From Oryzias latipes (Eukaryota; Chordata; Actinopteri; Beloniformes; Adrianichthyidae), in the NCBI RefSeq assembly GCF_002234675.1, contig NC_019877.2, positions 155,001-219,000 on the forward strand: a stretch of 64,000 bases of DNA, written 5' to 3'. This document shows positions 18,701 through 21,700 of this stretch, one piece after another (position 1 is the first letter of the stretch; every line of letters starts with the position of its first letter). The position numbers and the translations under genes are program-made. Under the pieces are notes generated by a model. That model was given only the letters and a program-made list of their open reading frames with translations. It had not been told where the DNA came from and ran no database searches.

Positions 18701-21700
18701 TGATGTCTCAGGCTTTGTTCTGGTTTTGTTCTTTCCCTGCTTTCAGGGAAGCTTCCTCGTCTCTTGCGTTTGTGTTGTCATGACGCCTGTGGACTGATTG
18801 GCTTGTTAGTGAGGCAGAATCACCTGCGTCATCATGATCTGGGTGTAAAACTACGGAGGCGTTCCCACCGGACCCCCGCGGCCGCTAACTACCCGTGCTA
18901 GCTACTGCGCCGCTACGACAAGCCACACTTCCTGAATCACTAGCACAGCTGCAAACACGTGCGGCGGTCTACCAGCGCAGTCATGCGGCATGTATTCATC
19001 AGTTAGCGGACCGGATTCCTATTTACCTGGACCCACCAGTAGAACAGCGTTAAGGGGGCTACCACGATGAGGAAGACGGGGGTGAGGGCGGAGCATATGA
19101 GCAGCACATTCAGCGTGTACCAGAAGGTGCGCATCCATATGTCCATATTGTCAGGGATGAGGAAGTCTACAGCGTCCATGTCTGTGCCGAAGCGGTTCAG
19201 CAGCCGCCCCGAGGGGGTGCTCTGGAAGAAGGCCTGCGGCGCCCGCAGCACCCCCTGCAGCAGGCGGCCGTGCATGAGCTGGGCGGCGTGCAGCGTGCTG
19301 TAGACCCGGCACAGCAGGCAGGTTACCAAAACCAGCAACCCTGCGGGACAAGGGGTGAGAGGGGGGGGGCTGGAGTCAGCAAGCGCTGCGTCCCATGATC
19401 CCTTGCAGCTGCTCGCATTCAAAGCTGATTATCTGGTGGCTTCGGTTCCCGTTTTTCACTGAGCTGCAGAATTTCTATCAGCTTGATTTTGATCGTTTAC
19501 TTCAGTAGTGCTTGTACTTTAATGTGAAAGTACTTTTACTTCCACTTAAGAAGTATTTTTGTTGTTCTGCTGAAAGCCTGAATAAAATAATTTATTCTCA
19601 TTTTTATTCTATTTAACATTTCTTTAAGATGTTTTCATTTCATGATTGCCAAGTTTCATTTCAAAATAAAAGCCCTGACTTGATTCAAACCATTGGGAGG
19701 AGTTTGGGAGTAAAGTTAAAGTAAACTTTTCATCATTTACTGAAATGATGCTTCATGTCTGACTGGAGATATGACCTTATGACCTTAATGACGTCAGAAC
19801 TTTTCAACCACAAATACTTCTAAATGTGAAATAAATTCCTGAGATCAAATCTGCACTGAAATCACAACATCAGAAAAATAGAAAATAAAACAAAACACTT
19901 TTGCCTCTTTTTACCAGTAGAATAAATTATAATTATTATTTTTTAGTTACTGATTTTCGTCAGTCTTACTTTAACTGATTGGGTGATTGATTATATGAAA
20001 AATCTATATGAATTCAGAAAAAAATAACCTGTTTTCTCTTCTTCTATAGACTCCTTTGACTGTTTTGATATTTAACACGTTAAATTTGGATCAAATGTTT
20101 GCTTTGAACATCCATCGTTGTGTTCAGGATCCAGCAGAGAACCATCATCACATTTCCTGTTATTCCACCTCAAAGCTAAGTCTTCTGTTTCCATGGCAAC
20201 CCTTTCCTGAGACAAAAAGAAACAAAAATCTCAAATTCGATCAGAAATCTCCTGAAACAGAAGCTGTAATACCAGGATCGGCCACCAGAGGGAGTGCAGC
20301 CATTAGGTCAGAGGTTAAATGTGTGTGTGTGTGTGTTGGGGGGGGGAGACAGGAAGCGCTTCAGCTGCAGGGACGCTGCGGGAAAAAAACACCCAGAAGG
20401 TTACAGGAGCTGCAAACGAGCCAGAGAGGAGCAGAGGGGAGCAGAGAGGAGCAGAGGAGGTCTTTTTCCCCAGAGCGGGTCGGCCCCCGCAGGAGTACCT
20501 GAACAAAGACGTAAATTAAAGCCAGAACGGGGATGATGAGGGCGAAGTACGGCGTGCTGCAAACGATAACGATCATGGTGGACAGCGAGGCGCAGAAGGT
20601 GCCCAGGAACATGAGCACGGTGGACGGCAGCGCCTCGTCGATGACGTAGACGTCCTTGGAGAAGCGGTTGATGATGCGTCCTATGGGGGTGGTGTCAAAG
20701 AAGGACTGTGGGGTGTGCAGCTTGTTGGTGAGCAGGTTGGCGTGCAGCCGCCTGGCCGCGCTGATGTTCCCCATGGCTAAGGTGTAGGAGGAGATCATGA
20801 CCAGGATGCCTGCGGACGGTTAAACCACAGGAGACGTTTTACTGTGAAGGACGCTGGAGCCCCGCCCACACACCGAGACGCTCTGCTGCCACTTGAATGA
20901 AGACGTGGTTAAAAAAGGCGGCCGTCTGAGAGGAGGGTCACTGAGCGCGCTCACTCACCTTGCGCGATGCCCAGCGCCGCGTACACCGACACCCTCATCT
21001 GCACGTTCTCCTGGGTGTGGTTCCCCGCCGCGTCGTTGGTCCACTGACTGAGCCAGATGTTGGATCCGATGGCGGCGGCGCTCTGGCAGCCGTACAGCAG
21101 AAGGATGAGCACCGACAGCAGCACCCCCACCGCCTTCACGTACTCCAGGTACACCTTGGTTTTCACCTGGGGGACGGTCGCACACGTCAGCCGCTGCTAA
21201 AGCTGGGGGCGGAGCCTCTCTGGGCGTCTGCACTGACCCGTCCGGTCTCCGCCGTCTCCGCCTGGATCAGCTTCTCCAGCTCCTTCTTCTTCTCCGGCGG
21301 CTCGCCGCGCTTCCTCTGGCTGCAGCCGTGCCTCCGCACCGAGCGCCTGCGCGGGTTCTCGCCGTCCGCTGACAGGACGCTCATCTGTCTGCAGACAGGA
21401 AGCGGAGAGTCAGCCCCTCCCCCCTCACCAGCGCACGCTCCCGGCCTCTGAACCCCCACCTCATGAAGGCTTTCCTGGCCTCGTTCATCACCGGCTCGTT
21501 CTCCATCATGTCGCAGTGATGGTTGCCCAGCTCTTCTTCAGGGAAGAACTCCATCTCGTCCAGCAGCTCGTCTGTAACCACGGCGACAGAGCATCAGGCC
21601 CAGCCCCCCCAGAACGGCGCCCTCACAGACGCTCCACCCTTTACCTTCAAGCTCGTCCTCCTCCAGAATGTCCTCCAAAGCGTAGTTCCTGAGGAACTCT

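Follow-up and report, generated by a model that had tools for sequence, protein, structure and literature searches.

A tandem pair of exons 23 in fish abcc3 that is probably spliced mutually exclusively and would give two ABCC3 exporters

In Drosophila MRP, alternative exons with read support form clusters of 2 and of 8 (PMC4588896). According to a second paper (PMC9741552), the exon events in the fly and worm MRP genes coincide in one structural region though they are unrelated, and human ABCC9 (SUR2A/SUR2B) is given as a case of tandem exon duplication in an ABCC gene of a vertebrate. A 2018 paper (PMC6071210) refers to Yue et al. 2017 on the independent duplication of exons in MRP genes of animals. 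Here we analyse a window of 64,000 nucleotides from the medaka (Oryzias latipes) genome, in which abcc3 carries two tandem versions of exon 23, 23A and 23B. The 2017 study of Yue et al. in RNA Biol is said to have found MRP1 exon duplication in many phyla and in early chordates and not in later vertebrates.

Like Drosophila MRP and C. elegans mrp-1, the medaka gene belongs to the ABCC/MRP group and has homologous tandem exons of which one would be used per mRNA. It differs from both, whose events are called unrelated in origin, in being a vertebrate ABCC3 and in having two copies only. Human ABCC3 (MRP3) is, by the evidence given below, the orthologous gene, and its exon 23 groups with 23A. 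The SUR2A/SUR2B pair of human ABCC9 is the last exon and changes the C-terminus. Unlike it, the medaka pair is internal, is followed by eight more exons (24–31) and alters transmembrane helices, and assignment to the SUR2A/B type of alternative last exon was rejected for this reason. Among the papers listed by literature searches, as judged by title and the start of the abstract, none deals with a pair of alternative exons in ABCC3 of fishes; passages from a review of fish-intestine ABC transporters, a paper on ABCC6/1/3 evolution, a survey of mutually exclusive exons in human genes, a review of tandem exons, and surveys of beetle and salmon-louse ABC transporters make no mention of it either. 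The B isoform is already in the databases and the novelty therefore lies in recognising it as one half of an old alternative pair. From its sequence, 23A/23B appears to be an unusually old instance of the tandem alternative exons known from MRP genes, and very probably one in which the copies are used exclusively.

The abcc3 locus and its two exons 23

Exons 2–31 of abcc3 were placed on the minus strand of the window (13893..34686, with the start of exon 8 at 27607; exon 1 is not included) by tblastn, with human ABCC3 as the probe. They match the human exon layout, and their splice sites are all GT-AG except for one GC donor at exon 10. This exon apparently uses the donor GAG/GCGAGT, at 25733–25734. 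The version of the model that contains 23B encodes 1532 aa from exons 2–31 and is identical to the public 1544-aa medaka protein P0003, named ABCC3 isoform X1, except for the first 12 residues of P0003, which belong to the exon 1 not located in the model; 23B of the window is thus a 100% match in this Oryzias latipes protein. The tblastn placement, the exon layout, the identical protein named ABCC3 and the grouping of 23A with the human sequence all point to the gene being the ABCC3 (MRP3) orthologue. With the same human probe, exon 23 alone is found to have a second full copy in the window, besides the expected cross-matches between NBD1 and NBD2.

Both copies lie between common partners on the minus strand. 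Exon 22 (20959..21166) leaves in phase 1 with the donor AAG/GTGAGT and is followed, after an intron of 149 nt, by 23A (20499..20809), an exon of 311 nt with the acceptor CCGCAG and the donor GTACTC, which is the copy grouping with human ABCC3 exon 23. An intron of 1158 nt (19341..20498) separates it from 23B (19027..19340), of 314 nt and 105 codons, with the acceptor CCCGCAG and the donor GTAAAT. The intron that follows (17288..19026, 1739 nt) starts GTAAATAG, which if left unspliced reads VNRNPVR and then a stop, and leads to exon 24 (17088..17287), entered in phase 0. Entry in phase 1 and exit in phase 0 are common to 23A and 23B, so that each bridges exons 22 and 24. The coordinates, intact splice sites and phases that the initial annotation had assigned to the pair are therefore correct on the minus strand, and its estimate by eye of about one third identity from end to end is borne out by an alignment with 31/89 identities (35%) and 54/89 positives (61%), far beyond chance at E 5e-22. 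Exon 23 covers late TM13, the coupling helix, TM14 and the start of TM15, and the coupling motif FF..TP.GR..NRF, which had been read in the two copies, is indeed kept in both. By sequence, then, 23A and 23B are adjacent homologous exons of near-equal length, with the same phases and intact splice sites.

Other features of the window were recorded in passing. A minisatellite at 30131–32094, with a 42-bp unit, 46.8 copies and 96% matches, ends 12 bases downstream of the end of abcc3 exon 5. At 9498–11063 on the minus strand an open frame of 521 aa contains Ig, Kunitz and NTR domains and resembles a secreted protein of the WFIKKN type. Two open frames on the plus strand, at 1467–2663 and 39749–43040, encode reverse transcriptase, the second also with an endonuclease domain, and look like the remains of non-LTR retrotransposons.

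Conservation and descent of 23B

Protein searches were made against ~5.8 billion proteins clustered at 90% identity. The medaka 23B query gave 129 matches and the reedfish 23B query 157, and for each all 120 of the matches listed are from ray-finned fishes; by a count made by eye, 77 of the 120 listed for medaka, out of its 129, bear an isoform label. A shortened 23B query, run under a length rule that excluded proteins over 1540 aa, gave 107 matches, all of them listed. Ray-finned ABCC3 accounts for 77, at E 8.6e-24 or better; the remaining 30 have E 5.5e-18 or worse and come from invertebrates, fungi, plants or environmental samples or belong to MRP4, two of the MRP4 proteins being from catfishes. 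Among these 107 matches (proteins of at most 1540 aa, 90% clusters) there is none named as coming from a tetrapod, shark, coelacanth or lamprey, and thus no B copy from outside the ray-finned fishes that could be set beside human ABCC3; gar and bowfin are likewise unseen among the 23B matches in the 90%-clustered proteins. The A and B isoforms differ only in exon 23, so one 90% cluster may hold both and a B form can hide behind an A representative. The absence of 23B outside ray-finned fishes is thus suggestive only.

The initial annotation proposed a protein search of 23B against other fish abcc3 loci as a way to learn its age, and such a search finds it in ray-finned ABCC3 from Oryzias latipes down to Polyodon (paddlefish) and Erpetoichthys (reedfish). 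It is present at full length, defined as at least 100 aligned residues and an extracted length of 104–106, in 114 of the 136 retrieved fish proteins (P0002–P0137), which give 84 distinct sequences with some species represented more than once. The other 22 were taken, from inspection of part of them, for short isoforms or trimmed models. Each of the 114 has 105 residues and none has a stop or an X; since gene prediction omits broken exons and the filter admits only near-full-length ones, this freedom from stops is partly selected for. The conservation of the 23B sequence, unlike its freedom from stops, is not a product of such selection: mean identity is 72% to medaka (medaka itself excluded) and 71% to reedfish, and a stretch of 10 residues is intact in 106 of the 114 proteins. 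An exon absent or riddled with stops in relatives had been named as the sign of a relic, and the opposite is found.

In the 11 species whose public models contain both copies, identity to medaka is 75–82% for 23A, 62–77% for 23B and 68–92% for exon 24, while exon 22, in the nine species with its full 69 aa aligned, gives 64–86%. 23B has the lower identity of the two copies in every one of the 11 species, and falls below exon 22 in seven of the nine. Its constraint is thus close to that of exon 22, though slightly weaker, and weaker than that of 23A. At the level of protein comparison, both copies are conserved as coding sequence in relatives of medaka.

The tree places the fish 23A exons and human ABCC3 in one clade without B, with support of 99/96. 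These values come from a second tree made without three long-branch rows, a leech, a chytrid and human ABCC6; the first tree, which included them, has the same clade of ABCC3 and 23A at 99/97. The B exons form one clade (100/100) on a long stem of 1.75 changes per column. Neither of two constrained topologies is rejected, a clade of fish A and B (p-AU 0.157) and a clade of human ABCC3, A and B (p-AU 0.466). For a possible common descent with the invertebrate exon arrays, the analysis covered these topologies. The best PDB sequence matches of 23B are ABCC2, but B does not group with ABCC2 in the trees. No closer source of 23B was found in the 734-Mb medaka assembly, where the next best of 10 matches has 39% identity.

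Since B is found in reedfish, paddlefish and teleosts, the duplication goes back at least to their common ancestor, and it may be older. A further step, that the pair predates the split between ray-finned and lobe-finned fishes and was lost toward tetrapods, is in our view rather unlikely. In that case the single ABCC3 gene of the vertebrate ancestor would already have encoded two exporters that differ in the TM14 substrate face, and the human gene would be a reduced form.

Reading frames, database isoforms and the use of the two copies

On translation of the frames, mRNAs with 23A only and with 23B only are both open to the normal end. Joining exons 22, 23A and 23B gives a reading of VFVQGCWFW and then a stop, the TAA being the sixth codon of 23B, and joining exon 22 to exon 24 is out of frame, with the first stop in exon 27, upstream of the last junction. 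Both breaks of frame had been noted in the initial annotation, which concluded that exactly one copy must be used, and its conclusion is supported by the frames because A and B together, or neither, gives a premature stop; inclusion of both copies or of neither is thus predicted to break the protein. At 1158 nt, the intron between the copies is long enough that splicing of A to B is not barred by a short intron, and an exclusive choice in the RNA would require regulation beyond intron length. In this one species, eight inverted-repeat pairs were found in 17200–21200, three of them being one simple-repeat pair; one pair of 76% identity, 18287–18307 with 19750–19770, links the two introns that flank 23B.

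Database proteins, medaka P0003 among them, join exon 22 to 23B and 23B to exon 24. Ten public models, plus the carp fragment P0124, have A and B in one protein with A first. In none of the ten is a complete A joined directly to a complete B, as the frames predict; all have filler or trimmed ends.

We therefore favour, as the likely explanation of the pair, an ancient tandem exon duplication whose copies are spliced, probably mutually exclusively, to give two ABCC3 exporters with a different TM13-ICL3-TM14 region. Exon 23 of abcc3 would have been duplicated in tandem, at the latest in the ancestor of living ray-finned fishes, and the copies would then have diverged. Splicing would take one copy per mRNA, exclusivity being enforced at least by the frame through the frameshift and premature stop that A with B, or neither, should produce, and the wrong products would be expected to be removed by nonsense-mediated decay. 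The two exporters would be identical save for ~105 residues that make up the cytoplasmic part of TM13, the ICL3 coupling helix, TM14 and the start of TM15.

Some database isoforms begin or end within 23B. The survey of these covered part of the retrieved fish proteins, under names given by annotation pipelines and mostly for predictions; the isoform models of such pipelines generally rest on RNA evidence. Forms of 491–503 aa that start inside 23B occur in six species (P0125, P0126, P0127, P0128, P0130 and P0131), namely Erpetoichthys, Polyodon, two salmonids, Pangasianodon and Gadus macrocephalus, and hint at a promoter inside the gene, in the interval from 23A to 23B. Six fish species have isoforms ending in IWMRTF. 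In medaka the same ending results if an internal donor, TTCTG/GTACAC, which lies in the Trp-Tyr codons TGG-TAC and has 19121 as its last exonic base, is joined to exon 24 on the minus strand: 19027..19120 is lost from 23B, and IWMRTF is followed by a stop (TG plus A, TGA). In isoforms P0056 and P0104 the sequence continues beyond 23B with VNR, like the unspliced intron between 23B and exon 24, and six isoforms have SNR as their last residues, the ending expected if intron 24 is retained. Because isoforms start or end in 23B, part of its use may be unproductive or driven by another promoter.

If this were its main use, 23B would serve short transcripts from the internal promoter, whose N-terminally truncated protein would hold the rest of TMD2 and NBD2, and there would be no full second exporter. 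The six species with 491–503-aa forms speak for such a reading. Proteins with a complete 23B are, however, far commoner (the 114 described above), the 23B acceptor keeps the phase 1 that matches exon 22, and medaka lacks the Met used as start by five of the six short forms, having STL where the B consensus has sML; we consider it unlikely. That 23B is instead a regulatory exon, the use of which mostly yields targets of decay and so tunes the level of abcc3, is very unlikely: the IWMRTF endings of six species, as expected from the internal donor joined to exon 24, and the stops made by A with B or by neither would suit a switch of this kind, but the protein sequence past the point of IWMRTF is also strongly conserved (CSALTP, FYWWVQ), which a switch does not need. 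A relic of partial gene duplication, or an assembly artefact, might be suspected of an exon in a large intron that is only about one third identical to 23A, but this is contradicted already by the retention of 23B in the same gene across ray-finned fishes and has against it also the lack of any other close copy in the medaka assembly, so that it may be dismissed as extremely unlikely.

Differences between the two predicted exporters

Residues are numbered here by human MRP1, with which exon 23 aligns over 1027–1130, the position of E1089 having been checked against PDB chain 8vt4. The two copies were compared over 89 positions (1042–1130) in 114 B exons and in 11 of the 12 A exons, the shorter carp fragment being dropped. 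At 28 of the 89 positions at least 90% of the B exons share a residue that differs from the commonest one of A, and at 18 of these A is itself at least 90% fixed. Of the 28 sites, 17 fall at 1087–1111, which we take to lie in TM14. In this region the residues K, M, F, G, F and N of human MRP1 are replaced in B by D1092, I1093, W1094, R1096, W1099 and Y1100. Position 1093 is M in all 11 A exons and I in nearly all 114 B exons (printed frequency 1.0). The equivalent residue of bovine MRP1, Met1092, is among the eight that contact both LTC4 and the inhibitor CPI1, according to the available part of the source (PMC10089224). Since TM14 differs between A and B and includes this ligand contact of MRP1, a different substrate preference is the likeliest effect of the exchange, and the step to another substrate range, which the initial annotation had thought probable, is a reasonable one. 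We infer that the A and B forms most likely prefer different substrates or differ in coupling, perhaps by tissue.

The medaka TMD2 piece with 23B still fits PF00664, at 129 bits against a cut-off of 28, though less well than the piece with 23A, at 164 bits. An AlphaFold model of a pipefish protein carrying 23B (P0129), of low confidence with a mean pLDDT of 66, shows TM13 followed by a short coupling helix and then by TM14 and TM15 in the residues of the exon (88–192); its best structural matches are human ABCC3 entries, in a loose superposition with a TM score of 0.51.

The substrates exported by ABCC3 are conjugates of bile acids and of steroids, and the glucuronides of drugs. Should both copies be in use, assays of the abcc3 transcript that lie outside exon 23 would sum two pumps and those inside it would see one. 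The pair would be a natural swap of ~105 residues around TM14 in an exporter that is otherwise identical, kept in many ray-finned fishes, and would thereby allow a direct test of the residues that set substrate choice in MRPs. It would also extend to a vertebrate the exon duplications that have occurred repeatedly in MRP genes of animals.
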